Assembly: GCF_029590555.1 (NCBI RefSeq)
Contig: NZ_CP081001.1
Location: 1,116,001 to 1,180,000 of the forward strand
From: Sphingobium sp. V4
GTDB lineage: Bacteria > Pseudomonadota > Alphaproteobacteria > Sphingomonadales > Sphingomonadaceae
Direction: 5' to 3'
DNA: 64,000 nucleotides
Below are positions 13,633-50,348 of the stretch, piece by piece (the stretch's first letter is position 1; the number at the start of each line of letters is the position of its first letter). Position numbers and translations under genes: made by a program. The notes below the pieces were generated by a model, which saw only the letters and a list, made by a program, of their open reading frames with translations, ran no database searches and was not told the origin of the DNA.

Positions 13633-13664
13633 AACCGACCATTCGGTTAACCGTTTGACTGGCC
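13633..13664 (+). promoter_or_regulatory. operator-like motif, tandem pair, in the ACAD/TetR divergent region
   Basis: AACCGACCATTCGGTT (13633-13648) is a near-perfect inverted repeat AACCGA-N4-TCGGTT. A weaker copy, AACCGTTTGACTGGCC (13649-13664), follows directly. The pair lies between the minus-strand dehydrogenase operon and the plus-strand TetR gene, as expected for autoregulation plus control of the operon. The same motif recurs before many other genes in the window. Confidence 0.6.
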
Positions 13665-13966
13665 GAGCAGCACAGGTTGATCCGGCCGCCTTCACCAGTC
13701 GGTTCTCCTTCAAATGTCCAGCCGATACGGGGACATTGTCATCATTCCTCGCATTGGCTAACATGCGGACATACAGAGTGAGAATTCCGCACGTTTCGTT
13801 GTTCCAGGAGTGTCGTAGCCTATGCCGTAATATTTTCATTTTGGTGGCTGTGCCCATGTCGGCAGCGCTGCGATGGCGGATTCGGCAGATGGTCTGGTGT
13901 CAAACGGGTGACATTGCGAGACTGGACCGACTAAACCTATAACTTCTACGTTAAGGAATTGAATTG

Positions 13967-14734
13967 ATGGCTGAGCCTTTGGAAAAAATTGATAGAAAAG
14001 AAGCGGTGTTGAATGCCGCATCTCACTTGTTTGTAGCAAATGGCTATATGTCCACAACAATGGATGATATCGCGGCGACTGTTTCACTCAACAAGGGCAC
14101 ACTTTACTATTATTATGAAAGCAAGTCTGCAATCCTGTTTGACATTATCTATAGGGGCGAGGAGGGGCGTCTCGCAATGGCACGCGTGGCGAGCGATAGG
14201 GCCGCTGACGCAAATCCAAGCGATGCGTTGCGGCAGTTCATCGAGGAGACCGCAATCTATATCCTTGAGAATCCGGTGAGCTCAAGGATTTCAATGCAGG
14301 AATCTCCTTTCATCGATATGTGGCTGACCGACGAGCAGTTGAAGATCCTCAATGATTGCCATGAGGAATTTCAAGGCTACATGCTGTCGCAACTCGAACG
14401 GGGCATCGCGGAGGGGCTTTTTTCTGGCGTCGATCCGCGCGTGGCCGCTCAGGGCATTACCGGCGCGCTGAGTGCGCTGCCCCGCTGGTTTCGCAGCAAA
14501 GGCCCGCTTGGACCGGAAGAGGTCGCCCGAGATTTGGCAAATCTTATGCTCAACGGCGTGATGGGAGGGAAACCGGTGTCCGTTCCCCCTGCGATCAAAA
14601 CGAGGGCGAAGCGTGCGCTCAATGGGGAGGGGCCTGTGGCTGCGGTGAACAAGGCTCCGAAAAAGCCGCGAGCGCGGGACAAAGCGCAAGAGCGCCGGGC
14701 TCGCGCGGATGTTTTCAGCAAAGACCTAGGATAG
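13967..14734 (+). CDS. TetR-family transcriptional regulator
   Basis: A 255-residue repressor of the TetR type. The N-terminal helix-turn-helix (about residues 10-57) reads LNAASHLFVANGYMSTTMDD, then IAATVSLNKGTLYYYYESK with the usual YYY recognition-helix end. The ligand-binding part resembles acyl-CoA-responsive members. Unlike most family members it has a basic, Lys/Arg/Ala-rich tail of about 45 residues after residue 205. ATG 13967 has AAGGA upstream. The gene diverges from the dehydrogenase operon with a tandem operator-like motif between them, so it is the best candidate for the regulator of the window-wide motif. That link is inference. Confidence 0.85.
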   Translation: MAEPLEKIDRKEAVLNAASHLFVANGYMSTTMDDIAATVSLNKGTLYYYYESKSAILFDIIYRGEEGRLAMARVASDRAADANPSDALRQFIEETAIYILENPVSSRISMQESPFIDMWLTDEQLKILNDCHEEFQGYMLSQLERGIAEGLFSGVDPRVAAQGITGALSALPRWFRSKGPLGPEEVARDLANLMLNGVMGGKPVSVPPAIKTRAKRALNGEGPVAAVNKAPKKPRARDKAQERRARADVFSKDLG

Positions 14735-14806
14735 CGGCCCAAGGCAAGCCGGAGTCCGTTTTGACACCGACCTAGCATGCCGGCAGGAGAGAGGAGGACG
14801 CGCGCG

Positions 14807-15142: not shown

Positions 15143-15194
15143 CTCGATCTCCACCTATTGTACATCCATACTATGTGGGTGGGCGCTCAGCGTC

Positions 15195-15210
15195 AACCAA
15201 ACGGACGTTT
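15195..15210 (+). promoter_or_regulatory. operator-like 16-bp motif, weak copy
   Basis: AACCAAACGGACGTTT matches the recurring AACCRACYNNWYGGTT motif at 12 of the constrained or semi-constrained positions but has GTTT instead of GGTT at its end. It lies in the divergent gap between 15142 and 15306. Confidence 0.35.
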
Positions 15211-15219
15211 GCACGACAA

Positions 15220-15305: not shown

Positions 15306-16175
15306 ATGCTGGAAGGCGGAATGTATCAGGTGGATGGTGGAGACAGGAGAAATGATCCGGCCGTTGTTCGACGGACTGAGACCGACAGGATTTGCCTGCA
15401 GCTTTGTCAGCGCTTGGCCGCGCTGCTGGACGTCGATCCTGCGAGTTTGGTCGAAGGGCAGGAATTGCCGCTGGCTTGGACGTCAATCCTTTTCCCGACA
15501 GTTGTTGTCCAATCCGATCTTGGTCGGGATGGCCATGCGAACCGTGGAAGCTTCATTCCAGCCGGTTTGTCTCCCCGGCGCGTATTCGCTGGGCGAACAT
15601 TGACGCGGCTCGGCCCTTTGCGGATCGGGGACACCGTGGAGAGGAGTTCGGCAATAGCTAAGGTCGAGCACAAGCAAGGCAGGCGCGGGCCTTTTGAACT
15701 TGTCACCCTGCGGCATGAGGTTTCGAGCCCTGCTGGTCCAGGCTACGAAGAAATTCAGAAGATCATTTATCATGATGGCGTGGTCGCGGGCGGGCAGGCG
15801 GAAGGATCTGACGCAGGCATAGCTCCGAGTTGCTGGTCTCGGGAGATACGGATCGATGAGACGATGTTGTTCCGGTACTCTGCGTTGACGTTCAATTCCC
15901 ATCGCATCCACTATGATTTGCCCTATGCCACCGCGGTTGAGGGATATCCGGGTTTGGTCGTGAACGGGGGGCTTACGGCGCTGCTGTTGGCGCAATTCTC
16001 GCGCGAAGTCCTCTCCGCTCCTGCTCTTGAATATGAAATGCGTGCCGTTGGCCCGCTATATGCCGGACAGAATATATCTCTTAGAGGGCGCTCTACAGTA
16101 GAGGGCGGCGAGTTCGACGCGTTCGCGGAACACGGGGGCCTGGCGTTCTCAGTTCGCGTGAAGGTCGCAGGATGA
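15306..16175 (+). CDS. mesaconyl-C4-CoA/itaconyl-CoA hydratase-like MaoC protein
   Basis: A 289-residue double hot-dog hydratase that would add water across a C=C bond of an acyl-CoA. The N-terminal FAS1-like dehydratase domain includes LGRDGHANRGSFIPAGLSPR and FAGRTLTRLGPLRIGD. The C-terminal MaoC half has FRYSALTFNSHRIHYDLPYA, where Asn/His positions form the active site, and VNGGLTALLL. This layout is that of mesaconyl-C4-CoA hydratase and itaconyl-CoA hydratase. Its stop overlaps the start of the CoA-transferase gene (ATGA), and a CitE-type lyase follows. The start could be ATG 15306 or ATG 15321 (after AAGGCGG). Confidence 0.8.
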   Translation: MLEGGMYQVDGGDRRNDPAVVRRTETDRICLQLCQRLAALLDVDPASLVEGQELPLAWTSILFPTVVVQSDLGRDGHANRGSFIPAGLSPRRVFAGRTLTRLGPLRIGDTVERSSAIAKVEHKQGRRGPFELVTLRHEVSSPAGPGYEEIQKIIYHDGVVAGGQAEGSDAGIAPSCWSREIRIDETMLFRYSALTFNSHRIHYDLPYATAVEGYPGLVVNGGLTALLLAQFSREVLSAPALEYEMRAVGPLYAGQNISLRGRSTVEGGEFDAFAEHGGLAFSVRVKVAG

Positions 16176-17386
16176 GCGGCGGTGTACTCGAGGGTGTGCG
16201 CGTTGTCGATTTGACGAGCGTGGTGGTCGGTCCCGTGGCCACCATGAATCTCGGCGATCACGGCGCCGATGTGATCAAGGTCGAAAGTCCCGATGGCGAC
16301 CTGCTGCGTCGTCTGGGCGGAATGTCGCGGTGCGGGCAACTCTCCCCGAAATTCCTGCACATGAACCGAAACAAACGTTCGATTGCCCTCGATCTCAAAC
16401 GACCGCGTGCACGACAGGCTTTGGAACGGTTGATCGCCAGCGCCGACATCTGCGTCAGCAATATGCGGGAGGCGGCCATGGAGCGGCTGGGGTTGGGGAG
16501 GGATGCTCTCGAAGCCGCTTATCCCCGGCTCATTCACTGCCGCCTCGTGGGATTTGGTGATGGAGGTCGATATGCGGCACGCCCGGCCTATGACGGAATT
16601 ATTCAAGGCATGGGAGGAATGACGGCGATATTCGAGGAGGCGGACGGTCGACCGCGTTTCGTGCCGATGACAATCGCCGACCACGTCGTTGGGTTAGTCG
16701 CCGTGCAGCAGATCCTCTATCAACTCTATCGGCGCGAGCGGACTGGAAAGGGGGGCACGCTGAGCGTGCCGATGTTCGAGAACCTGGCTGCGTTCGTCAT
16801 GTCGGAGCACATGGGCCAGCTCACGTTCGAACCGAAGAGGGGCGAACCGGGTGACAGGCGGGTGCTTGATCCCGGAACGCAGCCGATCCCCACCAAAGAT
16901 GGCTACATTTGCATTTCCGCGAACACCGATCATCAGGCGCACGCCCTTTTTCGTGCGATCGGAAGGCCCGAGCTGTGCGAGGATCCCCGCTTTGCAACCG
17001 TTCAGGCACGCTATGCGAACGTGTCGCAATATTTCAGCCTGCGCAATGCGGCGCTCGGTGAGCGAACGACACAGGAGTGGCTGGATATTCTGGGTGCCGC
17101 CGATGTGCCGGCCGGCCCAAGCCATAGCCTGATGTCGCTTCTCGATGATCCGCACCTTTCGGACGTGTCGCTCTTCGAGTTGCGGGAGCATCCGTACGAG
17201 GGTATGATCCGCAATATTGCCCTGCCCGGCCGTGCAGCGGACCTCGCAAGATCCGATTATCTGCCCCCCCCATTGCTGGGGGAGCATGGTCGCGAAATCC
17301 TGTCCGACGCCGGACTTCGTCCCGAAGAGATCGACGCGATGGTGGCGGCCAGAGAACTTGTGACGCCAGAGCATGGTTTGTCGTGA
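16172..17386 (+). CDS. family III CoA-transferase (CaiB/BaiF type)
   Basis: A 404-residue enzyme that moves CoA between carboxylic acids without ATP. N-terminal GVRVVDLTSVVVGPVATMNL is followed by NRNKRSIALDLK. The catalytic Asp sits in PAYDGIIQGMGGM at about residue 150, and the C-terminal part has DVPAGPSHSL and the LGEHGREIL ending. Overlap with the hydratase upstream and 14-bp spacing to the lyase downstream indicate one operon. By analogy with itaconate degradation or the 3-hydroxypropionate bicycle it could activate a C5 dicarboxylate or shift its CoA. The substrate is inferred, not shown. Confidence 0.85.
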   Translation: MSGGVLEGVRVVDLTSVVVGPVATMNLGDHGADVIKVESPDGDLLRRLGGMSRCGQLSPKFLHMNRNKRSIALDLKRPRARQALERLIASADICVSNMREAAMERLGLGRDALEAAYPRLIHCRLVGFGDGGRYAARPAYDGIIQGMGGMTAIFEEADGRPRFVPMTIADHVVGLVAVQQILYQLYRRERTGKGGTLSVPMFENLAAFVMSEHMGQLTFEPKRGEPGDRRVLDPGTQPIPTKDGYICISANTDHQAHALFRAIGRPELCEDPRFATVQARYANVSQYFSLRNAALGERTTQEWLDILGAADVPAGPSHSLMSLLDDPHLSDVSLFELREHPYEGMIRNIALPGRAADLARSDYLPPPLLGEHGREILSDAGLRPEEIDAMVAARELVTPEHGLS

Positions 17387-17399
17387 GGAGAGGCCGGGC

Positions 17400-18308
17400 A
17401 TGATGTTCGACAATCCGGTGTCGTCTTGGAGATCGCTGCTCTACGTCCCGGCGCATGTCAGCAAATATGTCGACAGCGCGATACGGTCTGGCGCCGACGC
17501 CGTCGTCCTCGACCTGGAAGACGGCGTACCGTCAGGCGCGAAGCAAGACGCACGTGCGGGCATCAGGGATGCGGCTGAGAAGGTGGCGAGAGCGGGAATC
17601 GATGTGGTTGTGCGGATCAACCGGCCGCTCGGCCTAGCCGTGCGCGACATCGAGCGGAGCGTCGGACGGTTCGTCGCCGCGCTGGCGCTACCGAAGGTCG
17701 AGTCTGCCGAGCAGGTCCGGCTGCTCGCAGAAGTTATCACAGAGACGGAAGCGGGATTGGGCCTGCCGTCCGGTCGGACGAGGATTATCACCCTCGTCGA
17801 AACGGCTGACGCTTGGTTCGGGATGCGCGCGATCGCGACGGCGGATGCGCGCGTCTCGGCCATGCTGCTCGGCGGTGAGGATCTGGCTTCCCAAGTGGGA
17901 ATGGAGCCCAGCGCCGAGAACCTTCTGTCGCTTAAGCAGACCATGATCATGGCGTCGGCGGCCGCGCGCATTGTCCCGCTGGGACTGGTCGGCAGCTTCG
18001 CCAACTTTCGCGATCTGGACGCTTTCCGGACGATGGTGCATCGATCCCGTTCCCTGGGGTTTCAGGGATCGACATGCATACACCCGACCCAGGTTGCTAT
18101 CCTGAATGAGGTGTTCACGCCTAGCCAGGCAGAGTGCGAAGAGGCCATCGCTATTGTGAACGCCTTCGAGCAATCGCAGTCTGCCGGCTTTGCCGTGGCC
18201 GGGAACGGAGGCGCAATGGTCGATCTGCCGGTGGCGGAACGAGCGCGCCAACTCATCAGACGGCATGAGCGCATCATTGCAAAGCGGCAGGAGCGGGGAT
18301 TTGGCTAG
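17400..18308 (+). CDS. HpcH/HpaI-CitE family CoA lyase (malyl/citramalyl-CoA lyase-like)
   Basis: A 302-residue TIM-barrel lyase that would split a beta-hydroxy or malyl-type CoA ester. Family motifs are LLYVPAHVSKYVDSAIRSGA, DAVVLDLEDGVP (metal ligand region), VVVRINRP, ALPKVESAEQV, ITLVETADAW, LLGGEDLASQVG and the GFQGSTCIHPTQV motif near the C-terminus. ATG 17400 has GAGGAGAGG upstream; a second ATG follows directly. It completes the hydratase/CoA-transferase/lyase trio and precedes the IclR gene by 27 bp. The trio resembles itaconate degradation (hydratase, transferase, citramalyl-CoA lyase), though related substrates are equally possible. Confidence 0.82.
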   Translation: MMFDNPVSSWRSLLYVPAHVSKYVDSAIRSGADAVVLDLEDGVPSGAKQDARAGIRDAAEKVARAGIDVVVRINRPLGLAVRDIERSVGRFVAALALPKVESAEQVRLLAEVITETEAGLGLPSGRTRIITLVETADAWFGMRAIATADARVSAMLLGGEDLASQVGMEPSAENLLSLKQTMIMASAAARIVPLGLVGSFANFRDLDAFRTMVHRSRSLGFQGSTCIHPTQVAILNEVFTPSQAECEEAIAIVNAFEQSQSAGFAVAGNGGAMVDLPVAERARQLIRRHERIIAKRQERGFG

Positions 18309-18335
18309 AATCGCAAAGAAGGTATTTAGTGTGGA

Positions 18336-19076
18336 ATGACCGAGATTAAGTCAGCGAGGCGCGCGCTATCGATTTTGGAGGCGCTGTCGGATTTTCAGCG
18401 GCCGGTTCGGGTCTCGGAATTGCAAGGCGCGCTCGGTATACCGCAGTCGAGTATGTCGAAGTTGCTTCGCTGTCTCGCCGACATTGGCTATCTGCACTAT
18501 AGTCCGGAAGACCGGACCTACTTTCCAACATTGCGCGTGTCGTTGCTTGGGAGTTGGCTACAGGACAAGTCGTTCGGTCGTGGCAGTTTGCTTGCCAGAA
18601 TGGAGGCCTTTCGCGACCGCTGGGAAACGAGCGTATTGCTGGGCGTGCAGAACGACATGCATGTCCTCTATATTCTGGCTCTTCCAGCGCTGCGTGCGCC
18701 ACGGCCTCCACTGGGCTCTGGCGCGCTGCGCCCACTGTGCCGCGCGGCGGTGGGCAAGGCTCTGTTGATGCTCAAAACGGACCAGGAGATCGGCCTTATT
18801 GTTCGGCGTATTAATGCGGAACAGCCAGATCCGCGTAGTCGGATCAATTTGACGGAGTTGCTGGCCGACGTCGGACACAGCCGTGAGCGGGGATTTGCGA
18901 GGAGCAATGGGGAGGTCGTCCCAAACACGGGAGTGATCGCGATGCCTCTTGCCGAGATTGCTGGGCAACCGAGTATCGCGATCGGTGCAGGTGCCTCGTT
19001 GGATTGGCTCAACGAACATGGTGAGCCCCTAAGTGAGGCGCTTGCGGCTGAAGTTCGCGCGATGGCGCTTGACTAG
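18336..19076 (+). CDS. IclR-family transcriptional regulator
   Basis: A 246-residue regulator with an N-terminal winged helix (ARRALSILEALSDFQRPVRV, then LGIPQSSMSKLLRCLADIGY) and a C-terminal effector-binding domain (ALRPLCRAAVGKALLM, ERGFARSNGEVVPNTGVIAM). It ends the hydratase/CoA-transferase/lyase operon, 27 bp after the lyase, so it is likely local. Matching palindromes at 15220-15237 and 20081-20094 flank the locus and are candidate binding sites. Effectors of this family are often the pathway carboxylates. Confidence 0.88.
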   Translation: MTEIKSARRALSILEALSDFQRPVRVSELQGALGIPQSSMSKLLRCLADIGYLHYSPEDRTYFPTLRVSLLGSWLQDKSFGRGSLLARMEAFRDRWETSVLLGVQNDMHVLYILALPALRAPRPPLGSGALRPLCRAAVGKALLMLKTDQEIGLIVRRINAEQPDPRSRINLTELLADVGHSRERGFARSNGEVVPNTGVIAMPLAEIAGQPSIAIGAGASLDWLNEHGEPLSEALAAEVRAMALD

Positions 19077-19185: not shown

Positions 19186-20001
19186 TTAGCCGGACGGATC
19201 GCTGCGACCGAAAGACGTCTTTCCGGACGCCTGAGCTTTTTTGCGCTCCTCGCGTACCTTGTTGTATTCGAAACTGGTATGCGAAAGTTGATGAGTGTCG
19301 AAATGCGCCTGAAGGGCGGTGCGAAAGCCCTGGGCTTCGCGGGTTCTGTTCAATGAGCGCTTAAGGATGCGCAGCGCGAACGGAGGCGCGGCGGCAATTC
19401 GTTCAGCCAGTTGCAGCGTTTCGGCTTCAAGTTGCGCGCGCGGAACGACGCGGTTGACCATTCCCAGTTCCAGACCATCCATTGCCGACAGGCGTTGACC
19501 CGTGAACAGGAATTCCTTGGCCTTTCGCAGACCAAGGACATAGGGATGGATCAACATTTCGACCGCGGCTGCGCCAAGCGTATGGGCCGTGGGATCGGAG
19601 AAGGAGGCGTCGTCCGCAGCGACCATGAGATCGCACATGTTCGCAACCATGAATCCGGCGGCGATGCATGCGCCCTGGACCTGAGCGATCGTCGGCTTGG
19701 ACGTGTCGTAGATGCGCAGACAGTAGTCGTAGAAATGCTCGAGCTCGTAGTCGAATCGTTCCTCGACGGTAGGATTGGGCCGAGCAACGACCCCTTCCTT
19801 AAGGTCGTGACCGGCTGAAAAATGATCGCCCACGCCGGCGAGGACAATGACCCTTATCTCCGGGTCGCGATCGGCGTGAACGACTGCGTGATCGAGCTCT
19901 TCCAGTAATTGCCGGCCTTGCGCATTGCGTTTTTGCGGCCGATTATGCGAAATGCGCGCCACTGGGCCGATACGTTCGTACAAGATGTCCTGATAGTCCA
20001 T
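19186..20001 (-). CDS. enoyl-CoA hydratase/isomerase (crotonase family)
   Basis: A 271-residue crotonase-fold protein. ARISHNRPQKRNAQ begins the fold, GVGDHFSAGHDLKEG forms the first oxyanion-hole strand, and QGACIAAGFMVANMCDLMVA the second. At the position of the usual second catalytic Glu it has ASFSDPTAHTLG, so it may be an isomerase or hydrolase rather than a plain hydratase. ATG 20001 (MDYQDILYERIG) fits the family start better than the longer frame to 20067. The ATTCCATAAGGAAT palindrome lies 80 bp upstream, and it converges with the IclR gene. Confidence 0.82.
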   Translation of the reverse strand: MDYQDILYERIGPVARISHNRPQKRNAQGRQLLEELDHAVVHADRDPEIRVIVLAGVGDHFSAGHDLKEGVVARPNPTVEERFDYELEHFYDYCLRIYDTSKPTIAQVQGACIAAGFMVANMCDLMVAADDASFSDPTAHTLGAAAVEMLIHPYVLGLRKAKEFLFTGQRLSAMDGLELGMVNRVVPRAQLEAETLQLAERIAAAPPFALRILKRSLNRTREAQGFRTALQAHFDTHQLSHTSFEYNKVREERKKAQASGKTSFGRSDPSG

Positions 20002-20080
20002 GACGTTTCCCGGCTTATGCTTCATGATGATTGCAATGCTGAGGTTAGCGCGCCGAGGCCCCGGCACATAGCGACAAGAT

Positions 20081-20094
20081 ATTCCATAAGGAAT
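20081..20094 (+). promoter_or_regulatory. candidate IclR operator, second copy
   Basis: ATTCCATAAGGAAT is an inverted repeat (ATTCC-N4-GGAAT) that matches the core of the 15220-15237 palindrome in 13 of 14 bases. It lies in the 103-bp gap upstream of the enoyl-CoA hydratase gene. Confidence 0.5.
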
Positions 20095-20104
20095 TCATGG
20101 CTGA

Positions 20105-21664
20105 TCAACCGCTATTTGCGACAGCACTGGACCGATTCAACGTGATGCCGACAGCTTCCCTGTCCCAGTGGGCCGGACCTGCAGGCCGTTCCTTGAGAAG
20201 GAACTTCTGCACTTTCATCGTTGGAGTCCGCGGCAGCTCATCGATTCGCTCGAAAAATCTTGGGATCATGAAATATGGCAGTCGCCCATCGAGGTGACGC
20301 ACCAGATCTCCGAAATCGATCTCGCCGGCAATGACCAGGAAAGCCTTGATCTCCTCATCCCCCTGAAATGCGCCCTGGACGGCCACGCATGCTGACTCGA
20401 GGACCCCCGGGTACAGGTTGATTTCGCGTTCGACTTCCTGGCTAGATACGTTTTCCCCCCGGCGTCTGATGCTGTCCTTGAGCCGGTCTCGCCAGAAGAA
20501 GTTGCCCTCTGCATCGCGCTCGAAAAGGTCGCCAGTCCGGTACCAACCATCATGCCACGCCTCTGCCGTCGCTTCTGGATTATTGAAATATCCGAGCGAC
20601 ATCTGTGTACGGCGGGTGGTACGGATCAGCAATTCGCCGCGCTCGCCGTCGGCCACATCGTTGAAATCTTCATCGACGATTCTCAACTCATAGCCTTTGC
20701 GCTGTTGGCCGCAGCTGCCGGTCACAACCGGCTGGCCAAGCGGCTTGCACAGCGCGGTCGAAGTTTCAGTGGACCCAAACCCCGTGCAAAGACCCTCGAG
20801 TCCAAATCGCTCCACGAACTTGGCTGGATCGGGCGGAAGAGGCGAAGAGAGGAAAAAGCGCATCTTGTGATCGCGGTCTGCCGGAGAGGGCGGATCCTGC
20901 ATCAGCTTCGCGGCCATCGAGGAAACCAGTACACCGAAGGTGGTTTCGCAGTCCCGCGCAATTTCCCAGTATCGGGACAAGGAAGGCCGGGTACGCAGGG
21001 CGATGCTGCCACCGACGCGCATCATGAGCGTGAAATTCCCGAGCGCCGCCATGTGGAACAACGGCAGGTCGCCCATGAACCGGTCCGATTCCCCGACATC
21101 TCCGCTTTCCGCCATCCAGAAGCTTTGGTTGATGACGTGAAAGTTCGATGTAAGCGAACCCTTGGATCGCCCTGTGGTGCCGGATGTAAAGATGATCACA
21201 TGCGGGCTGTCGCCATTGATCTCACTCAGGATCGGGGGCGTATCGGACGGCACCGCGAGGGACGCGGGAGAGATATACCGCGACTTTGCAGGGGCTTCCG
21301 AGACGGGGCTGCTTGCGATCACAAAGCTTGGGTCTGTGGTTTCCAGCAGTTCCTCCAGAATCCGGCCAACGAAGCTCGGGTTGAACGGAACAACAATGGC
21401 TCCGAGCAAAGCCGCCCCCCACCAGGCGCGTAGCCAATCCGGCCCGTTCGGGAGAATTACGCAAACCCGGTCGCCAGCGCGAACCCCCTCACGTTGCATC
21501 GCGGCGGCAGCGCTCAGCGCGACCTCGAGCGCGTCCCGGCGCGACCAAACCCCCCAGTCTTCGAAAAGGACGAAGGGACGATCGGGCCAATCCCTGGCGC
21601 CGGATACAAGCAATCCGCGCACTGTTTCCGGGTTAGCGTCCATCGTGTCGATCAAGTCTTTCAA
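20105..21664 (-). CDS. AMP-forming acyl-CoA synthetase
   Basis: A 519-residue adenylate-forming enzyme that activates a carboxylic acid to its CoA ester. The P-loop-like motif is IIFTSGTTGRSKGS, followed by TGFGSTETS and GWYRTGDLFERDAEGNFFWRDR, with RRRGENVSSQEVE as the hinge region and PRTPTMKVQKFLL carrying the usual C-terminal Lys. The start is probably TTG 21664, which has AGGAGAGG seven bases upstream; ATG 21643 is the alternative. It diverges from the SDR-MaoC-ALDH operon. The operator-like motif at 21752-21767 lies 87 bp before this start. Confidence 0.88.
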   Translation of the reverse strand: MKDLIDTMDANPETVRGLLVSGARDWPDRPFVLFEDWGVWSRRDALEVALSAAAAMQREGVRAGDRVCVILPNGPDWLRAWWGAALLGAIVVPFNPSFVGRILEELLETTDPSFVIASSPVSEAPAKSRYISPASLAVPSDTPPILSEINGDSPHVIIFTSGTTGRSKGSLTSNFHVINQSFWMAESGDVGESDRFMGDLPLFHMAALGNFTLMMRVGGSIALRTRPSLSRYWEIARDCETTFGVLVSSMAAKLMQDPPSPADRDHKMRFFLSSPLPPDPAKFVERFGLEGLCTGFGSTETSTALCKPLGQPVVTGSCGQQRKGYELRIVDEDFNDVADGERGELLIRTTRRTQMSLGYFNNPEATAEAWHDGWYRTGDLFERDAEGNFFWRDRLKDSIRRRGENVSSQEVEREINLYPGVLESACVAVQGAFQGDEEIKAFLVIAGEIDFGDLVRHLDGRLPYFMIPRFFERIDELPRTPTMKVQKFLLKERPAGPAHWDREAVGITLNRSSAVANSG

Positions 21665-21751
21665 GTCACCTCTCCTGGGCGCAATCGCATCCTGTCGGAC
21701 CCGGCGGTCGCTCACAAACCAACAAGACGGGATTCGAAAAGCGATTGATCC

Positions 21752-21767
21752 AACCGAATGGATGGTT
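21752..21767 (+). promoter_or_regulatory. operator-like motif before the acyl-CoA synthetase gene
   Basis: AACCGAATGGATGGTT fits the recurring consensus (AACCGA-N4-ATGGTT). It is 87 bp from the TTG start at 21664 and pairs with the copy at 21845-21860, which faces the divergent SDR operon. Confidence 0.6.
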
Positions 21768-21844
21768 GATACGGCCCGAAGCATTGCGCGCAACATGCCT
21801 TATATTCGGCCAGTTCCCGAAGGGCAAGAGATTGCGAAACGTGA

Positions 21845-21860
21845 AACCAACTAATCGGTT
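21845..21860 (+). promoter_or_regulatory. operator-like motif before the SDR-MaoC-ALDH operon
   Basis: AACCAACTAATCGGTT (AACCAA-N4-TCGGTT) lies 87 bp before ATG 21948, the same distance as the companion site has to the divergent gene. Confidence 0.6.
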
Positions 21861-21947
21861 GACCGAGCTGGAGGCAGTCGCCATTCTGCATTCACGGGAC
21901 TTGATTCCCCGCGGCAAACTGGCCGGTCACGCGAGGGGAGGCAAGCT

Positions 21948-22802
21948 ATGCAGATCAATCATTCAACGGCAATCGTCACTGGAGGCGCAAGCGGAATCGG
22001 TCGGGGAATGGCCCTGGCCCTGGCGGAGCAAGGCGCCCGGTTGGTTGTCGCCGATATCGACCTCGCCGGAGCTCAGCAGGTTGCCGAGGAAATCAACGGC
22101 TCCAGTGGGGACAAGGCGATCGCGGTGCACCTTGACGCGCGTGATGCCGAATCCTGGAAGCAAGTGGCTGATCGGGCAGAAGAGGCATTCGGCAAGATTC
22201 ATATCCTTTGCTCAAATGCGGGGGTGGCCGCTGGTCGGGGCAATGTCGAAGATCGAACATTGGAAGATCTCGATTGGGTTTGGTCGGTCAACGCAAGGGG
22301 GATGTTCATTGGCGTAAAGGAAGTTTTGCCGCGCATTCGTCGACATGGAGAAGGCGGTCATATTGTGATCACCTCCTCGATGATGGGGTTGTTCGCTTCA
22401 CCGGGAACATCGCTCTATGTGATGTCCAAATACGCTGCGGCCGGGCTTGGGGAGGTTCTTTTCCTTGAGCTGAAAAACACCAATATCGGTGTATCTATCT
22501 TGTGCCCGGGTGTCGTCAACACATCGCTTTTGTCGAACGTCCAAAAAAACATGCCCTCCCAACGCGGAAATGATCGAAACGTTGAAACGGTCGCCTTTTT
22601 GGAGGCCGGCGCGGACGCAGTGGATGTTGGCAATCAAGTCGTCAAAGGCATTTCCAACAACGACTTCTATATTTTCAGCCACCCCGAGTACAAGCCGTTG
22701 GTTGAGGAACGATTTGATCTTGTCCTTTCGGCTTTTTGCGACAGGGCCACGCCTGACAAGCAGGATGATCTTTCCTACTATTCCGTGACATATAAGTCCT
22801 GA
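21948..22802 (+). CDS. short-chain dehydrogenase/reductase
   Basis: A 284-residue classical SDR that uses NAD(P)(H). It has TGGASGIGRGMALAL as the cofactor loop, DIDLAGAQ (an Asp after strand 2, favouring NAD), LCSNAGVAAG for the NAG motif, SSMMGLF for the catalytic Ser, YVMSKYAAAG for YxxxK, and CPGVVNT. It opens an operon with a MaoC hydratase (8-bp gap) and an aldehyde dehydrogenase. A 3-hydroxyacyl-CoA or alcohol oxidation fits, but the substrate cannot be read from sequence. ATG 21948 has AGGGGAGG upstream. Confidence 0.88.
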   Translation: MQINHSTAIVTGGASGIGRGMALALAEQGARLVVADIDLAGAQQVAEEINGSSGDKAIAVHLDARDAESWKQVADRAEEAFGKIHILCSNAGVAAGRGNVEDRTLEDLDWVWSVNARGMFIGVKEVLPRIRRHGEGGHIVITSSMMGLFASPGTSLYVMSKYAAAGLGEVLFLELKNTNIGVSILCPGVVNTSLLSNVQKNMPSQRGNDRNVETVAFLEAGADAVDVGNQVVKGISNNDFYIFSHPEYKPLVEERFDLVLSAFCDRATPDKQDDLSYYSVTYKS

Positions 22803-22809
22803 TTGCATC

Positions 22810-23313
22810 ATGCTATACGTCAACTATCGCCCGTTCGCCGAAATTCGTGCCATGATCGGGGAGGACCTCGGAGCCTCGGACTGGATTCTCATTGATCAGG
22901 AACGAATCGATCGATTTGCTGCTGCGACAGATGATTTCAACGACGTTCATGTGGATCCCGAGGTTGGCCGGGCGGGGCCGTTCGGTACGACCATAGCGCA
23001 TGGGCTGCTGACAATGGCCCTCGTCACGCGCATGGCATCGACAATCGTGCCTGTGCCAAAGGAGATGACCAGCGGCTATTATTACGGGTTTGACAATGTC
23101 CGCCTGATCCGGCCCGTGCTCTGCGGCAGCGAGTTGCGCGGTCGGTTCAAGCTGCTCGATTACTTTGAGCGCGCTCCTGGTCAGTGGATGCGTGTGGTCG
23201 AAGCGGTTGTCGAGGTCCGCGGCCAGGACAAGCCGGCGCTTACTGCCGAAACGCGCGCCGTGCACTTTTTGCCCCCCGGCTTGGGCGAGGGCGAGCCAAG
23301 TCTGTACTTCTGA
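22810..23313 (+). CDS. MaoC-family (R)-enoyl-CoA hydratase-like protein
   Basis: A 167-residue single hot-dog protein. The hydratase-2 signature is clear: FAAATDDFNDVHVDPEVG with the Asp and His pair, then GTTIAHGLLTMALV. Family members hydrate trans-2-enoyl-CoAs to (R)-3-hydroxyacyl-CoAs. It lies between the SDR and the aldehyde dehydrogenase, which together could hydrate and then oxidise an acyl-CoA and release an aldehyde product. It is of normal length. Confidence 0.87.
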   Translation: MLYVNYRPFAEIRAMIGEDLGASDWILIDQERIDRFAAATDDFNDVHVDPEVGRAGPFGTTIAHGLLTMALVTRMASTIVPVPKEMTSGYYYGFDNVRLIRPVLCGSELRGRFKLLDYFERAPGQWMRVVEAVVEVRGQDKPALTAETRAVHFLPPGLGEGEPSLYF

Positions 23314-23375
23314 TTATCTCGAGCCAGGAAGCACCGGCGACCTGGGTGAGCAAGTGGATTGCTAGGAGGTCCCGG

Positions 23376-29103: not shown

Positions 29104-29105
29104 CC

Positions 29106-32227: not shown

Positions 32228-32234
32228 GGCGTGC

Positions 32235-39211: not shown

Positions 39212-39225
39212 AGACAGGTCGATTG

Positions 39226-39246: not shown

Positions 39247-39264
39247 GGCCGGAGATTGCTTGAA

Positions 39265-40184: not shown

Positions 40185-40213
40185 CCCGCGAGCGGCTCAA
40201 TGCTGCTCGCGGG
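40185..40213. terminator. convergent hairpin between MaoC and thiolase genes
   Basis: CCCGCGAGC and GCTCGCGGG pair perfectly across an 11-nt loop in the junction of two convergent genes, overlapping the thiolase stop codon. There is no T tract, so terminator function is uncertain. Confidence 0.35.
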
Positions 40214-41387: not shown

Positions 41388-41872
41388 GATGGATCCTCCG
41401 CGACAAGGCGGAATTGCGGCATGGCGAGATCGTCGGGGCCCTTCTCGAAAACGACTTCGACCGCCTTGCCGACCCGCAGATCCTCGATCGTCGCGCCCGG
41501 AAAATTGGTGTAGAGGAACAACTCGTCTTGTTCGACCAGTTCGACCAGGCCCACAAGATAGGGGGTCACCTTGGCGAAAGCAGGATGACGGGCGCCCGTC
41601 ACCGTCTGCGTGTAGCTGTAGATCCGGCCCCGTCCTGACACGGCTTCAAACGCCAGATCGGTGGCGAGGCAGCGCTGGCATAGCGGCGCCGGCGGATGTT
41701 GCCATGCCCGGCAATGGCAACAACGCTGGACATGGAGTTTGCCGTCCGGATGACGCCGCCAGAACTCTGCCGAGAGGCTGTCGGGAACAGGGACCGGCTT
41801 GCCGGATCGCTCTCCATACATGCTTGCTATCGCATCCACTTTTTGATCATCCCTTCGAAATGTATCAATCAC
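41384..41872 (-). CDS. DUF35 Zn-ribbon/OB-fold protein, partner of the thiolase-fold enzyme
   Basis: A 162-residue protein with a zinc ribbon (QRCCHCRAWQHPPAPLCQRC: CxxC then CxxC) and an OB fold (GRGRIYSYTQTVTGARHPAF, then YLVGLVEL). DUF35 proteins bind acyl-CoA and dock on thiolase-fold enzymes; in actinobacteria the DUF35 domain of ChsH2 holds Ltp2. Its stop overlaps the start of the thiolase-fold gene. The start is unsure: GTG 41872 gives the full frame, and an in-frame ATG at 41821 (MYGERSG) is another option. Confidence 0.8.
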   Translation of the reverse strand: MIDTFRRDDQKVDAIASMYGERSGKPVPVPDSLSAEFWRRHPDGKLHVQRCCHCRAWQHPPAPLCQRCLATDLAFEAVSGRGRIYSYTQTVTGARHPAFAKVTPYLVGLVELVEQDELFLYTNFPGATIEDLRVGKAVEVVFEKGPDDLAMPQFRLVAEDPS

Positions 41873-41920
41873 ATAAATGGTCGAACATTGGCCATGCCGG
41901 TTGAACCGGATCCAAGCGCC

Positions 41921-44747: not shown

Positions 44748-47219
44748 TTAGAACCGGGCGGTTAGCTGAAGGCTGATTTCCCGAGGACGGTTGAAGTATG
44801 CGTTATACTGGCCTTCCGAAGGCTGCCGTGGGAAATCCAGGGCGTACCAAGCCTTGTATGCATCGGTAAGATTTCGCACGTTCAACGCCAGTTCGTACTT
44901 ATCATCCGAAGTGGAAACCGCGACTGACGTGTTGACCCGCCAGTATCCCTTTACAAACATACGCGGGTCGAGACCGTCGGTGACATTCTGTCCGCCCGTG
45001 TAGATCGCATTTGCGCCAAGCCGTCCCTTGAACGAGGAACCGAGTTCCTTCTCGTACGTGAAACCAAAGGAGCCGGCCCATTTGGGCGAGCGGGGCAAAG
45101 TCTTACCGCTGAGGTCCTGCACACCGGCAGCAGAACCAACCGGCGTAACGCAGCCGGTGCCGATCGTGGCCTGTCCGGTATAGCAGGTTGCATTGGGGAA
45201 GCTCTTATAATGCGTATCGTTGTAGCCAATTGCCGCATCAAAGCTGAGGTCAGGGGTGACCTGGTAGGAAAGGCTGCCTTCCACGCCCTGCTGGAGCGAA
45301 GAAGCCGCGTTGGCAACGAGGAAGGTGAATACGCCATTGACCTCAACCAGCGCGGACACCTGCTGGTTCGTGATCTTGTAGCGATAGGCCGTCGCTTCCA
45401 CACGCAGCTTGCGGTCCAGCAACTGGGCCTTGTAGCCGATCTCGAAGCCGCGGGTCTTTTCCGGAGCGAACTCGGTATTCTCCGGTGTAAAGATCGAACT
45501 GAACACCGGCGGTGCCGAGAAGCCGCCCGACTTATAGCCGGTCTTGTAAGCGCCGTAAATTGTCTGATTCTGGCTCGGATGCCAGGTCAGCGTCGCTTCA
45601 GGCGATACGTTGTAGTAGTATTTCGAACGATCGAAATACTGCCCCGCGGGGTAGACGCTCGTCACCAGCGGGTGGCGCCAGGAGTTGCCCGAGTGGTCGC
45701 TATTATTCTCGGCCGTCCAACGCGCGCCGGCATCGAACTCGAGAGTATCCAGGATTTTCCAGCGAGCCTGACCGAACAGCGAGAAGGTCTCGGTACCTTG
45801 GTTGATGTCGCGGGTGTAATTGTAATAGCGGCCCGTCGCAGGATCCTGCGCCTGGAAGGTCTGCAGCGAGTTCGAGATGTTGGTCTGGTGCTGCTTGGAA
45901 TAGTATCCGCCGACAACGAAGTTGATTGGCATGTCGAACTTGGTGGTGATTCGCGCTTCCTGCGAGAACCCCCAGGCGTCTTCGGAGTTGCTGGTCAGGT
46001 TCGCGCCGAGATCGTTAAAGTAGGAGTTGCCCGAACCCGCATAATTGAGATCATAATAGCCGCTGATCAGGCTGACATCCAGATGATCGGTTGTGTAGCC
46101 GATCTCCAGTGAGGCGATCTGTGCGTCCGTAGTGATGTAAGGGATGCCGCCATTGGCGCCCGGCATGTTGGTCGCGAGCAGCGGCGGCACGCCCGAAAGC
46201 AGATTGTGCTGGTCGCCCTTGCAGTTGGTGTGAGTCATGGGAACGCCGATGCTGACCGGTGTGGTCGCGCCGTTCACGCAGACGCTTTCAGAGATGCCCG
46301 TGTCGCTGCCTCCGTCGCGGTGATAGTGCAGCCGCGAATATTTGCCTTTGAAGCTCAATTCCGGGGTGGGCTTCCACACCACCGTGATGCGGCCGCCCTG
46401 ATTGCTGTCAACCGGGCCGCGGGGGTGGATGGCGCCCGGGACGGGGAGGTTGAGGTTTCCGAAAGCGTTGGTATAGCCAGTGCCCGGGGCGCCGGTTCCA
46501 TTGGCATTGGTGCCGAAATAGGGGTTCACCGCATAGCCGACGGCATCGTTGACCAGATAGCCATCCATCTTGTTGATGCGGCCCGCCAGCCGAACCGAGA
46601 GGTTATCGGTCAACGGTATCGAAACAGCGCCTTCCACGGTCCGCTCGCGCGCGTTGAACTCATAGGAGCCGCGCACGAATCCGGTCAGCGCCGAACCCGG
46701 ATCCACCGTGCTGATCGAAACCACGCCAGCCGGGCTATTCTTGCCGTAGAACAGGGCCTGGGGTCCCTTGAGCACCTCGACCTGGCTGATGTCGAACATC
46801 CCGAGCGGGATCATACGGCCGCGCGCGAGGAACACGTTGTCCATGTTCATCAGCACGGTCTGCTTGATGCCGACGTCAGTTGCCGTGGTTCCGATACCGC
46901 GGATGACGAAGCCGCCGCCGTTGCCGCTCGAGGACTGGTTCACCGTCACGAACGGGATGTTCTCGGAGATCTTGGAAATATCGGTCGCGTTTGCCCGCGC
47001 GAGCGATTCTCCGCTGACGACGTTGACCTGAACTGGCACGTCCAGCAACCGTTCAGTTGAACGGCGAGCGGTCACGACGATATCGCCCACTCCCTGTTCG
47101 GATTCGGCTTGTCCTGAATTCGCGGCCGCCTGATCCGCTTCCGCGGCAACAGCGGGCGCAGACAGGCTCGCCAGAGCCGTTGAGCACGCCAATAGCAACC
47201 GCCGCGAATATCCCCTCAT
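44748..47219 (-). CDS. TonB-dependent outer-membrane receptor
   Basis: An 823-residue receptor for active uptake through the outer membrane. Residues 1 to about 25 form a signal peptide (MRGYSRRLLLACSTALAS). A TonB-box-like DIVVTARRSTERL follows. The plug domain includes VPVQVNVVSG, VIRGIGTTATDVG and EVLKGPQALFYGKNSPAGVV, and the rest is a beta barrel ending in RPREISLQLTARF with the usual terminal Phe. ATG 47219 has GGGAG upstream. An operator-like motif lies 56 bp before it, so the uptake gene appears to be co-regulated with the catabolic genes. Ligand unknown; receptors of this group in sphingomonads often serve hydrophobic or aromatic substrates. Confidence 0.92.
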   Translation of the reverse strand: MRGYSRRLLLACSTALASLSAPAVAAEADQAAANSGQAESEQGVGDIVVTARRSTERLLDVPVQVNVVSGESLARANATDISKISENIPFVTVNQSSSGNGGGFVIRGIGTTATDVGIKQTVLMNMDNVFLARGRMIPLGMFDISQVEVLKGPQALFYGKNSPAGVVSISTVDPGSALTGFVRGSYEFNARERTVEGAVSIPLTDNLSVRLAGRINKMDGYLVNDAVGYAVNPYFGTNANGTGAPGTGYTNAFGNLNLPVPGAIHPRGPVDSNQGGRITVVWKPTPELSFKGKYSRLHYHRDGGSDTGISESVCVNGATTPVSIGVPMTHTNCKGDQHNLLSGVPPLLATNMPGANGGIPYITTDAQIASLEIGYTTDHLDVSLISGYYDLNYAGSGNSYFNDLGANLTSNSEDAWGFSQEARITTKFDMPINFVVGGYYSKQHQTNISNSLQTFQAQDPATGRYYNYTRDINQGTETFSLFGQARWKILDTLEFDAGARWTAENNSDHSGNSWRHPLVTSVYPAGQYFDRSKYYYNVSPEATLTWHPSQNQTIYGAYKTGYKSGGFSAPPVFSSIFTPENTEFAPEKTRGFEIGYKAQLLDRKLRVEATAYRYKITNQQVSALVEVNGVFTFLVANAASSLQQGVEGSLSYQVTPDLSFDAAIGYNDTHYKSFPNATCYTGQATIGTGCVTPVGSAAGVQDLSGKTLPRSPKWAGSFGFTYEKELGSSFKGRLGANAIYTGGQNVTDGLDPRMFVKGYWRVNTSVAVSTSDDKYELALNVRNLTDAYKAWYALDFPRQPSEGQYNAYFNRPREISLQLTARF

Positions 47220-47275
47220 AATCCACTCCCTTTGTAGAGGCGGCAACAGTTGCCGCAAGACCACGCCGCGCGTTC

Positions 47276-47291
47276 AACCGCCCGGTCAGTT
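47276..47291 (+). promoter_or_regulatory. operator-like motif before the TonB receptor
   Basis: AACCGCCCGGTCAGTT fits the recurring motif with changes at positions 6 and 13. It is 56 bp before ATG 47219. Confidence 0.5.
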
Positions 47292-47816
47292 AAAACCGCA
47301 ATACGCAGGGGACGAATAGTCTGTCAAGGCTGCTAGGAAATCGGTTGCATAGCCTGATCGTCCGCGCTGACCCAGCCAGCCTCCGCCTTTCACAGGCCGC
47401 CAGTCTCCGACGCGCCCAAGTGCCAAATCCCATTGGCACCTATGGCGATGCTCGCGCAAAACGGCGCGCCGAAACTCACTGCAACTTGTTTAAGGCAATT
47501 GCTCTTCGGGGCGAGGCCGCAAGATTGGGCTTATCCTTCCCTCCGGGGAGCGTCCCAGAAATTGGGTTGGAAGCTGATCTGGATAGAAGTTCTCGAATCA
47601 AAAGAGAAATTTCCCAGGCATTCACATTTCTCTATCCGAGAACGTCGGGTCGAACATGCGTAATGCGATCAGCTTTTCGGTGTCAAATTAGATGTTCTAT
47701 TCTGGAACGTGGCTTTGTACCTTGGGTGCCTGGGAAATTCTTGTTTCGTTAGATTCGCGGAATGCGGCCGCGCTCAGGCCCTGATGCGCCGGGTGAGCAT
47801 GTTCCCAGCCACGAGT
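47292..47816. other. 525-bp divergent intergenic region without a supported gene
   Basis: Frames of 76-135 residues exist but lack recognisable motifs and ribosome-binding sites. I read the stretch as promoter and spacer DNA between the divergent receptor and the dehydrogenase operon. Confidence 0.4.
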
Positions 47817-47832
47817 AGCCATATGGTTGGTT
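47817..47832 (-). promoter_or_regulatory. operator-like motif before the fused dehydrogenase operon
   Basis: On the minus strand this reads AACCAACCATATGGCT, matching the recurring consensus except for the C in the last half-site. It is 81 bp before ATG 47914. Confidence 0.55.
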
Positions 47833-47913
47833 GACAAATCGCAAAGTTTGGCGAAGTGGAATGAAGGCCCGAAGCGGTAAGGGCTTTGACATTCGACTAG
47901 GGAAATGCGGTCA

Positions 47914-50283
47914 ATGAGTGAAAATCAGACAGATGAGCAGCGGTTACTCCAGGATACGGTATCGCGCTTTTTTTCTGATAATTACGTTTTTGATGAACGG
48001 CGCACTATGGATTCGGAGCGCCAGGCATTCGATCCGGCCGTCTGGAATTCCATGGTGGAAATGGGCCTTATGGGTCTCCCGTTTCCGGAGGATCTTGGCG
48101 GGTTCTCTGGCAGTCTGCTAGACGTCCAAATCGTCACGCAGGCGTTGGGGCGGTCTCTTGTCAGGGAGCCGTGGCTGGCCTCTACAGTCTTGTCCGGCCG
48201 CGTGGTGGTCGAGGTCGCTAATCCCGAGCAGCAACGTGAGATTATCCCTGCAATCGCCAGCGGCGAACGTCGCTTGTCGTTTGGATATCAGGAGGGGCGT
48301 AGCCGCTGGAATCACGCGAATGTCGGAATGCGTGCCGAGCCCCGCGATGGGGGGTGGCGACTCAACGGGAGCAAGGCGCTCGTCACGGGCGCGCAGGGAG
48401 CGGATTCTCTTCTGCTGACAGTTCGCACCGACGGCGGACAATGCGACCGGGATGGCATCTCCCTTTTCCTGGTTGATACCGACACTCCTGGAATCACTCG
48501 GCGGGATTACTACACGATTGACGGCGCGTCGGCATCCGACATCACTTTGTGCGATGTCGACATCCCGGCTGCCGCCTTGCTTGGTGAGCGCGGCAAAGCG
48601 CTTGATGGTGTTGAGCGTGCCCTCGATTATGCAATTCTGGCGTTGTGCGGTGACGCTGTAGGCGCCATGCAGGCGATGCTCGAAAAGACGATAGAGTATG
48701 CCAAGACGCGAATCGCCTTCGGTGTATCGCTCTCTCAACAGCAGATTATTCGACATCGGCTGGTCGATATGGCGGTCGAGATTGAACACGCGGCTGCAAT
48801 CTCCGAAGCGGCGGCAAAAGCATTGATCCACGGCAGCCCGCGGGGTCGGCTGCTGGTGGCTGCGGCCAAGGCGCTTGTGGGTCGGGAGAGCCGGTCGGTC
48901 GCGCAGTGGGCCGTCCAGTTGCACGGAGCGATCGGTTACACCGATGAGCTTGATATCGGGCATTATTTCCGTCGCCTTACCCAGTTCGATATCCAGTTCG
49001 GCAACCGCGACTATCACCTCCGCAGATATGCTCATCTTCGTAAATCGGCGGGTGAAGATGGTCGAGCGATGTTCCAGCTTGATGAATTGACCGGAGAGGA
49101 TCTGGCTTTTCGGGACGAAGTTCGGGCGTTCCTCACCGAAGCGGTTACCCCCGAAATGAAAATCGCCCGGGAACGGACGATGTGGGCCTTCTCGGAATTT
49201 GAGCTTTCCCGGGCATGGCAGAAAAAGCTGGCCAAGCGGGGCTGGGCCGTTCCCAACTGGCCGACTGAGTATGGTGGTACAGGCTGGTCGACGAACCAGC
49301 ATCTGATATGGTCGCTGGAGAGTGCTCGCGCCAAGGCTCCGCTTTGGGTGAACATGGGGCAGACTCTGTGTGCACCCTGCATTATGGCGTTCGGCAGCGA
49401 TGCTCAGAAAGATGAGTTCCTGCCGCGCATTCGCGATGGAGAAGATTGCTGGGCTCAAGGCTATTCCGAGCCAGGCGCGGGATCTGATTTGGCGAATTTG
49501 CAGTTGCGGGCCGTCGCCGACGGCGATGATTACATCCTCAACGGATCGAAAATCTGGACGACCCAGGCACATAACGCGAATAGAATATTTTGCTTGGTAC
49601 GCACATCAACCGAAGCGCGAAAGCAGCAGGGGATCACGTTCCTGCTTGTGGATCGCGACACCCCGGGCATCACCGTCAGGCCAATTTTGAACCTGGCGGG
49701 AGAGCATGATTTCAATCAGGTGTTCTTCGATGATGTCAGGGTTCCCAAGTCGCGCCGGCTTGGGGAGGAGGGAGAAGGCTGGACTGTCGCGAGGCACCTT
49801 CTTAAATTTGAACATGGCGGCAATATGAACGTCGTGTTCGAGTTGGAGAGCCGGGTGGCGCGTCTTGAGGCCGTCGGACGCGCTGAAAGCGATGGACGTG
49901 GCGCTTCGCTGCTGGACGACTCGGATTTCGAACTTCGCTTTGCAGAAGTGGCCGTGGACGCAGAAGCTGTGCTTGCGGCCGCCAAGCGGACGATCGATAC
50001 GGCTCGAAGCGGCGGCGCGCCCGGCGCTCTACCCGAACTGCGCAATATTCGCCTGCGAGAGGTAAGCATGCGTCTCACTGAAATGATACTGGATGCTGTC
50101 GGTCCCTATGGCTTGGCCGAGCAGGGCGAGGCCAGGAATGCGTTGTCATCGACTCCCGCGATCGGGGCCGAACACCACCGTATGCCGACCGGCTTCTACA
50201 TGGCGCAGCGGGCGGCGACGATCGCGGGCGGAACGCCGGAAATTCATCGCAATAATCTGGCCAAGCATTTGCTCGGACTCTAG
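47914..50283 (+). CDS. fused double acyl-CoA dehydrogenase (FadE34-like architecture)
   Basis: A 789-residue protein made of two acyl-CoA dehydrogenase units. Unit 1 (about 1-370) is divergent: no SEPGAGS motif, but QQQIIRHRLVDMAVEIEHA and QLHGAIGYTDELDIGHYFRR are present. Unit 2 (about 395-789) has QGYSEPGAGSDLANLQLRA, the KIWTTQAH segment, the FFDDVRVPKSRR segment and the closing IAGGTPEIHRNNLAKHLLGL. Such tandem proteins replace the alpha2beta2 pairs of sterol side-chain oxidation; FadE34 is a known fused example. ATG 47914 is preferred over ATG 47905 because AGGG sits ten bases before it. It leads the operon to sucD. Confidence 0.88.
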   Translation: MSENQTDEQRLLQDTVSRFFSDNYVFDERRTMDSERQAFDPAVWNSMVEMGLMGLPFPEDLGGFSGSLLDVQIVTQALGRSLVREPWLASTVLSGRVVVEVANPEQQREIIPAIASGERRLSFGYQEGRSRWNHANVGMRAEPRDGGWRLNGSKALVTGAQGADSLLLTVRTDGGQCDRDGISLFLVDTDTPGITRRDYYTIDGASASDITLCDVDIPAAALLGERGKALDGVERALDYAILALCGDAVGAMQAMLEKTIEYAKTRIAFGVSLSQQQIIRHRLVDMAVEIEHAAAISEAAAKALIHGSPRGRLLVAAAKALVGRESRSVAQWAVQLHGAIGYTDELDIGHYFRRLTQFDIQFGNRDYHLRRYAHLRKSAGEDGRAMFQLDELTGEDLAFRDEVRAFLTEAVTPEMKIARERTMWAFSEFELSRAWQKKLAKRGWAVPNWPTEYGGTGWSTNQHLIWSLESARAKAPLWVNMGQTLCAPCIMAFGSDAQKDEFLPRIRDGEDCWAQGYSEPGAGSDLANLQLRAVADGDDYILNGSKIWTTQAHNANRIFCLVRTSTEARKQQGITFLLVDRDTPGITVRPILNLAGEHDFNQVFFDDVRVPKSRRLGEEGEGWTVARHLLKFEHGGNMNVVFELESRVARLEAVGRAESDGRGASLLDDSDFELRFAEVAVDAEAVLAAAKRTIDTARSGGAPGALPELRNIRLREVSMRLTEMILDAVGPYGLAEQGEARNALSSTPAIGAEHHRMPTGFYMAQRAATIAGGTPEIHRNNLAKHLLGL

Positions 50284-50332
50284 ACGAGCCGCATGGTCGA
50301 CGGATTGACATATCTGGTTGGCATCGTTTATC

Positions 50333-50348
50333 AAACAACCAGTTGGCT
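50333..50348 (+). promoter_or_regulatory. operator-like motif before the KshA-like gene
   Basis: AAACAACCAGTTGGCT is a degenerate copy of the recurring motif, 26 bp before ATG 50375. Its CAACCAG also pairs with CTGGTTG at 50314-50320, so a hairpin is an alternative reading. Confidence 0.4.

Follow-up and report, generated by a model that had tools for sequence, protein, structure and literature searches.

The kind of control exerted by the regulators KstR and PfmR is known, and it is the background for a palindromic operator motif, TCAACCRAYYRRTYGGTTGA, that recurs in a catabolic region of Sphingobium sp. V4. For PfmR (TTHB023 of Thermus thermophilus HB8), the available passages of PMC7022988 give an earlier published site, TACCGACCGNTNGGTN, and an in vitro selected consensus, CTGACCGATCGGTCAG. 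The PfmR sites in print, with nine kept of 96 occurrences in these passages, are far fewer than those of the array described here. KstR2 senses a CoA-ester, according to the passages available from PMC8700777, and its operator in the portions of the literature at hand is the 14-bp sequence AnCAAGnnCTTGnT. PMC8700777 also describes EdcR of Caenibius tardaugens, a TetR repressor of an alphaproteobacterial steroid catabolic cluster whose operator lies over a promoter box. The window studied here is the 64,000-nucleotide stretch C1:1116001-1180000, and the wider stretch analysed was 220 kb (C1:1020001-1240000). We consider it likely that a single TetR-family repressor uses the motif as its operator, most likely g089, the PfmR-type protein from 13967-14734, and that the motif heads 44 predicted units as one regulon.

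A sequence-only reading of the window had proposed eleven copies of a 16-bp inverted repeat before most of its catabolic operons. Because fitting that idea was to be avoided, an unbiased dyad count was done first, covering all 4- and 5-base half-sites with spacers of 0-14 in the intergenic DNA of the 220-kb stretch. The top-ranked dyad was AACC-N8-GGTT, with 8 observed versus 0.52 expected; the coding DNA, about 6-fold larger, held 1. A soft expectation-maximization run blurred to ~796 sites, and the dyad count with hard refinement was taken instead. Hard refinement gave the symmetric consensus above, a 20-bp palindrome of 16.7 bits, and 45 non-overlapping intergenic sites. At a score of at least 12, the refined matrix matched 45 positions in intergenic DNA (141 per 100 kb, counting overlapping registers) versus 3 in coding DNA (1.6 per 100 kb).

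Because the refined matrix was trained on its own sites, the fair test was a held-out matrix trained on 34 sites, all outside the window. The eleven proposed sites were all present at the coordinates given for them and scored 11.3-23.4 with this matrix (window ranks 1-9, 11 and 17); ten of them were among the 11 best positions of the window, and the remaining one, at 38102, was 17th. At a score of at least 12, there were 12 matches in 8,484 intergenic positions of the window versus 2 in 55,494 coding positions (Fisher p = 2e-9). At a score of at least 10, 15 intergenic matches were found versus a mean of 0.98 and a maximum of 7 for 300 column-permuted matrices, along with 6 coding matches. When up to 3 mismatches were allowed, the 16-bp pattern matched the window 69 times versus a mean of 30.0 and a maximum of 44 in 100 shuffles, where a palindrome may count on both strands. 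The operator-type palindrome is real, and its position before most catabolic operons was borne out. The repeat is nearer 20 bp than 16, with TCA/TGA ends.

The window sites are listed below without strand; scores and window ranks are those of the held-out matrix unless stated.

13631..13650, operator site TCAACCGACCATTCGGTTAA, overlapping second copy at 13645; 23.5 + 11.1 (refined matrix), 21.1 + 8.9 (held-out)
15193..15212, operator site between 14807-15154 (minus) and 15306 (plus); 18.3, rank 8
21750..21769, operator site, second reading 4 bp earlier (21748); 23.4, rank 1
21843..21862, operator site; 18.4, rank 7
25042..25061, operator site before the APH-MFS (major facilitator superfamily) operon; 19.7, rank 5
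33436..33455, operator site ~30 bp before the longest-open-reading-frame start of a CoA-transferase III gene, 33413 (minus); 20.5, rank 4
34646..34665, operator site before the short-chain dehydrogenase/reductase (SDR) gene 34453 (minus); 16.4, rank 11
34868..34887, operator site absent from the earlier list; 17.2, rank 10
38100..38119, operator site with overlapping copy at 38114; 11.3 + 9.4
41865..41884, weaker operator site absent from the earlier list, before the ChsH2-type OB-fold gene 41641 (minus); 12.8
47274..47293, operator site before the TonB receptor gene 47219 (minus); 19.2, rank 6
47815..47834, operator site before the double acyl-CoA dehydrogenase gene 47914 (plus), its end running into TTGACA; 17.7, rank 9
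50331..50350, operator site, centre 34 bp before the KshA-like gene 50375 (plus); 22.1, rank 2

The earlier list of eleven was therefore genuine but too short, as 34870, 41867 and the overlapping copies at 13645 and 38114 were added in the window. Its grading of individual sites did not hold: the site at 15195 had been called weak and was 8th in the window, the site at 50333 had been called degenerate and was 2nd, and the weakest of the eleven was 38102.

The motif sits at promoters. At 50331..50350, TTGACA and TATCAA hexamers were found with the operator at the -10 end. Among 25 one-sided sites, the operator end facing the gene was more TTGACA-like than the far end (p = 0.001). The gene-proximal operator end may thus often double as the -35 box, so that a bound repressor would exclude RNA polymerase. 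A homodimer, or two overlapping dimers, would occupy the 20-bp palindrome, with g089 as the putative binding protein, and a CoA-thioester from the pathway probably frees the repressor. Given the -35-like gene-proximal end, the model that fits best is one in which a CoA-ester relieves repression. In the titles, abstracts and passages of the literature covered, no report was found of this operator in sphingomonads or other alphaproteobacteria.

The array of 45 sites runs 173 kb (C1:1031862-1204657), well past the window on both sides, and the refined matrix found no site in the outer 47 kb of the 220-kb stretch. A search of the complete genome (4.54 Mb) that allowed up to 3 mismatches to the 20-bp pattern gave 15 places, 14 of them inside the stretch, versus 1 for the reversed control. 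With at most 2 mismatches, the 16-bp pattern gave 98 forward and 81 reverse matches versus 61 and 63 for its control. Equal density in coding DNA or elsewhere in the genome had been named as an outcome that would speak against the sequence-only reading, and these comparisons came out in its favour. Units were predicted from heuristic gene calls and operon rules, with a site required within 350 bp upstream. On this basis 44 of the 45 sites headed 44 predicted units. These contain 83 of the 142 genes of the stretch (30 of 53 genes inside the window), and the earlier estimate of about 25 genes from 11 sites was too small. Because the array covers these units over 173 kb, the catabolic region would form one regulon. 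Among the 59 genes with no site, some are transposase-like and several others, judged by eye, appear catabolic (g057-g060, g126-g128). Gene starts are approximate: the caller shortened the CoA-transferase start at 33413, and the longest-open-reading-frame start of the AMP-ligase (21796) would place the site at 21752 within that gene.

Three of the genome's 24 PF00440 (TetR) genes lie in the 220-kb stretch.

13967..14734, plus strand, TetR gene g089, whose product most likely regulates the array (PF00440 and PF17932; TetR fold)
35552..36232, plus strand, second TetR gene g107, disfavoured (C-terminal domain PF21351)
62124..62717, minus strand, third TetR gene g129, disfavoured (downstream of a site-bearing P450-type gene; one relative locus compared)

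The top motif scores among the 24 TetR loci were 23.4 at g089 and 18.2 at g107, followed by 12.6 at C1:368100. The operator pair at g089 lies 326 and 314 bp before the g089 start, and 84 and 96 bp before the start of the divergent acyl-CoA dehydrogenase gene. Among solved structures, the best sequence match of g089 was 3vpr, which is PfmR of Thermus (E = 9.9e-24; 34% identity over 75% of g089). Both proteins contain PF17932 (68.2 bits in g089 and 124.2 in PfmR, cut-off 26.4), and the fold neighbours of g089 include KstR2 and AibR, sensors of CoA-esters. The earlier published PfmR site has the half-site and centre of the array motif. In a 12.5-kb PfmR locus, the two best matrix matches fell within ~170 bp before the pfmR gene and were both built like the array motif, and an ACCRACY-type palindrome, as in the pfmR promoter, was present at array target promoters. 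By these comparisons g089, the gene that the sequence-only reading had picked, is the best candidate and most likely the regulator of the array.

The other described systems were further away. On the NCBIfam KstR equivalog, g089 scored 22.8 bits versus a cut-off of 280, and the array motif is without the CAAG-N2-CTTG core of the KstR2 operator. EdcR is alike in its operator over a promoter box and differs in its proposed operator, TnnCnnTACnAnTnGTAnnGnnA, its C-terminal TetR_C_11 domain and its four promoter regions (available passages of PMC8700777); g089 has PF17932, and the array motif is unlike the EdcR operator. DarR, as far as PMC10636190 was available, has a 20-bp site bound by overlapping dimers and a recognition-helix Lys-Gly and Tyr-Tyr also seen in g089, but its operator is ATACT-N4-AGTAT and its ligand c-di-AMP. 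Two other candidates were set aside as parallels on the passages available: PheR of Sphingobium is IclR-type (PMC13273656), and the proposed palindromes of the bsd I TetR of C. tardaugens differ (PMC12882949).

Relatives of the TetR genes were then compared through their upstream DNA. Of 99 g089-type loci on genome contigs, 80 were kept; the top 29 had 24-43% identity over the matched segment. Matrix matches of at least 12 within 400 bp upstream of the TetR gene were found in 12 of these 29 loci versus 0 of 8 g107-type loci, which links the operator at family level to the TetR type of g089; independent cases are fewer than 12, because 6 are near-identical Bacillota metagenome-assembled genomes (MAGs) and 2 others are alike. 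Some distant g089 relatives in other phyla thus carry the palindrome beside their gene. The six Bacillota MAGs (L041, L042, L045, L047, L050, L051) have TTCGACCGACCAGTCGGTTGAA 31 bp before the helix-turn-helix (HTH) match of the g089-type TetR. Fourteen relative loci, chosen partly for having matches, were compared with permuted matrices. Sites were numerous at L044 (10 versus a permuted mean of 0.59), L046 (7 versus 0.49) and L059 (5 versus 0.54). L043 and L039 had 4 sites each, counts that some permutations equalled (permuted means over the five loci, 0.49-0.78), and the other nine loci had 0-3 sites each.

The same comparison bears on g107. The gap upstream of g107 contains two sites, 674 and 896 bp away, g107 matches PfmR weakly (E = 1.6e-11), and in its plasmid relative L147 one site reaches 14.5 when the background is corrected for GC. 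That site is itself of a CATAC type (ACATACCGACTGTATGTATGTA), however, and with the background used for g089 the array motif reached 10 in none of eight g107 plasmid relatives (8 of 15 listed matches, 37-51% identity). In 6 of these 8, L152 weakly, a CATAC-type palindrome was found within 180 bp of the HTH match, and the C-terminal domain of g107 is PF21351. It is very improbable that g107 regulates the array. L145, L147 and L148-L152 are g107-type plasmid TetRs with this palindrome of their own, CATAC facing GTATG or GCATG, which is likely the operator of g107-type TetRs.

The third gene, g129, could be the regulator while g089 has another job, and we regard this as improbable. It shares the region with the array, and sites at 1180179 and 1180249 belong to the P450-type gene that precedes it. 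On an Agrobacterium plasmid, a relative with 45% identity has a single motif-like site ~1.4 kb away, placed 26 bp ahead of a hydratase gene; a fraction of 0.01 of 200 permuted matrices reached the score of this site in 12.5 kb. However, no site was found before that TetR gene itself, and over 40.5 kb 2 matches were found versus 1.79 with permuted matrices, which is no enrichment. This was the one g129 relative compared; none was found at the E-value limits used in 248 other family or 384 other class genomes.

Two or more regulators might instead share these sites, either two TetRs of overlapping specificity or a TetR with a LysR or IclR protein, and the array would then not be one regulon. PfmR and SbtR sites overlap in Thermus (passages available from PMC7022988), and the region contains an IclR gene and, by eye, LysR-like genes. 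On the other hand, a matrix trained on the flanks fits the window sites, and the IclR motif types in the available part of PMC13273656 are unlike this motif. We judge shared control unlikely, though somewhat less so than control by g129 or g107.

Several results weigh against control of the whole array by g089. The g089 pair is 314-326 bp from the g089 start; for PfmR, both sites stand a short way upstream of pfmR itself. The recognition helix is LNKGTLYYYY in g089 and LSKAALYHHF in PfmR, and the in vitro PfmR consensus has the GACC/GGTC steps in common with the array motif but differs in centre spacing. The motif was found in only 2 of the 51 weaker g089-type genome loci and in 1 of 7 g089-type plasmid loci (7 of 20 listed matches), namely PfmR's. 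L039, L043, L044, L046 and L059 had no site of at least 11 within 400 bp before the TetR gene. Relatives of g089 at 47-59% identity were read as proteins alone. Resemblance to a -10 box toward the gene was not significant (p = 0.07), and at the threshold giving 45 sites ~1.5 would be expected to be false. Control by g089 nevertheless remains the reading that we favour.

Genes of the window with their units are listed below. The Pfam scan covered 30 proteins of this genome besides rescans of the TetRs; other names were given by eye or by the sequence-only reading.

8594..13557, minus strand, unit g088-g085: two acyl-CoA dehydrogenases, amidohydrolase, PF10118 hydrolase (Pfam, operon rules)
15306..19076, plus strand, unit g091-g094: FAS1-type dehydratase, CoA-transferase III, HpcH/HpaI lyase, IclR (Pfam, operon rules)
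19186..21664, minus strand, unit g096-g095: AMP-ligase, enoyl-CoA hydratase (by eye; operon rules)
21948..24872, plus strand, unit g097-g099: SDR, MaoC, aldehyde dehydrogenase (earlier names; operon rules)
25212..27971, plus strand, unit of APH (PF01636) and MFS genes (Pfam, operon rules)
27958..33413, minus strand, unit g105-g102, CoA-transferase III at its head (Pfam on head gene; operon rules)
33641..34453, minus strand, SDR gene g106 (earlier name; operon rules)
38219..40169, plus strand, unit of DUF7065/DUF7064 protein with FAS1_DH-type and MaoC-like (under cut-off) dehydratases (Pfam, operon rules)
40197..41641, minus strand, unit of ChsH2-type OB-fold protein and lipid-transfer-type thiolase (Pfam, operon rules)
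44748..47219, minus strand, TonB-dependent receptor gene (by eye and earlier name; operon rules)
47914..51463, plus strand, double acyl-CoA dehydrogenase and KshA-type Rieske oxygenase, PF19298 (Pfam, operon rules)
51601..56599, plus strand, possible continuation of the KshA unit, outside the 83-gene count: hydratase, ferredoxin-like, EtfBA-like, SucC-like and SucD-like genes (by eye)

Two names changed in the scan: the gene called a racemase matches family III CoA-transferases (PF02515), and the gene called a lipocalin matches DUF7065/DUF7064. The gene set fits degradation of a large alicyclic compound via CoA-esters. A steroid substrate was considered in view of the KshA-type oxygenase and the ChsH2/thiolase pair, and an NCBIfam scan gave no usable pathway names. 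The genes at 51601..56599 follow the KshA gene after a gap of 138 bp. The genome has a second copy of their SucC-like gene at C1:616805 (79% identity), and each of four congeners has one copy.

Proteins of the DUF7065/DUF7064 type reappear at operator-linked genes (window 38219-39211; L003:307-1272). The IclR gene g094 (18336-19076) and a LysR-like gene, g024 (by eye, L002 7373-8329), themselves lie in operator-headed units, and together they are a possible second regulatory layer. A block of transposase- or recombinase-like genes (by eye) lies within the regulon at 53-7256, and the amidase at 7343-8320 aligns to only positions 1-295 of 445 of PF01425 and appears truncated.

When 249 family genomes were searched with the 20-bp pattern, the Sphingobium sp. 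V4 genome gave the highest count (15; control 1). A regulon common to same-family relatives was not supported, as the next four counts (13, 12, 11 and 10) were scattered, mostly 3-mismatch matches. The four congeners had 0-1 pattern matches and no g089 relative at E 1e-20, so that within the sampled genus the regulon appears to be accessory. Among the V4 genome and the four congeners, the left flank gene of the island was found in all 5 and the right in 2, the second being G144, where the two flank genes lie ~211 kb apart in another relative order, so that synteny does not settle the island borders.

In other bacteria, several sites also occurred in two alphaproteobacterial MAGs, a Pseudomonadales MAG and Nocardia vinacea. 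Gene content was looked at in the Phenylobacterium MAG (L046), which has two TetRs with PF17932 among genes of the kinds seen in the array, namely those for a TonB receptor, MFS protein, SDR, alcohol dehydrogenase, CoA-transferase III, hydratase, AMP-ligase and thiolase. What is new is the size of the regulon and the reappearance of its operator in a catabolic cluster that is unrelated; the kind itself is known, and the array is a very large example of it, on a par with the KstR regulon. We lean slightly towards a recurring single-switch architecture for TonB-receptor/CoA-ester catabolic islands, in which the same regulator type and operator recur elsewhere and one PfmR-type TetR here acts, across 173 kb, on ~45 operators and at least 83 genes. 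A second succinyl-CoA synthetase and a dedicated electron-transfer flavoprotein may belong to this set. If one repressor does control the whole set, the regulon would be as large as that of KstR, with its 83 genes, and all operator-headed genes, those of the DUF7065/DUF7064 type of unknown function among them, would share one physiological programme. The substrate could then be looked for by inducer screening on a single operator-reporter, and the operator may serve as a tracer for similar islands in unannotated genomes.

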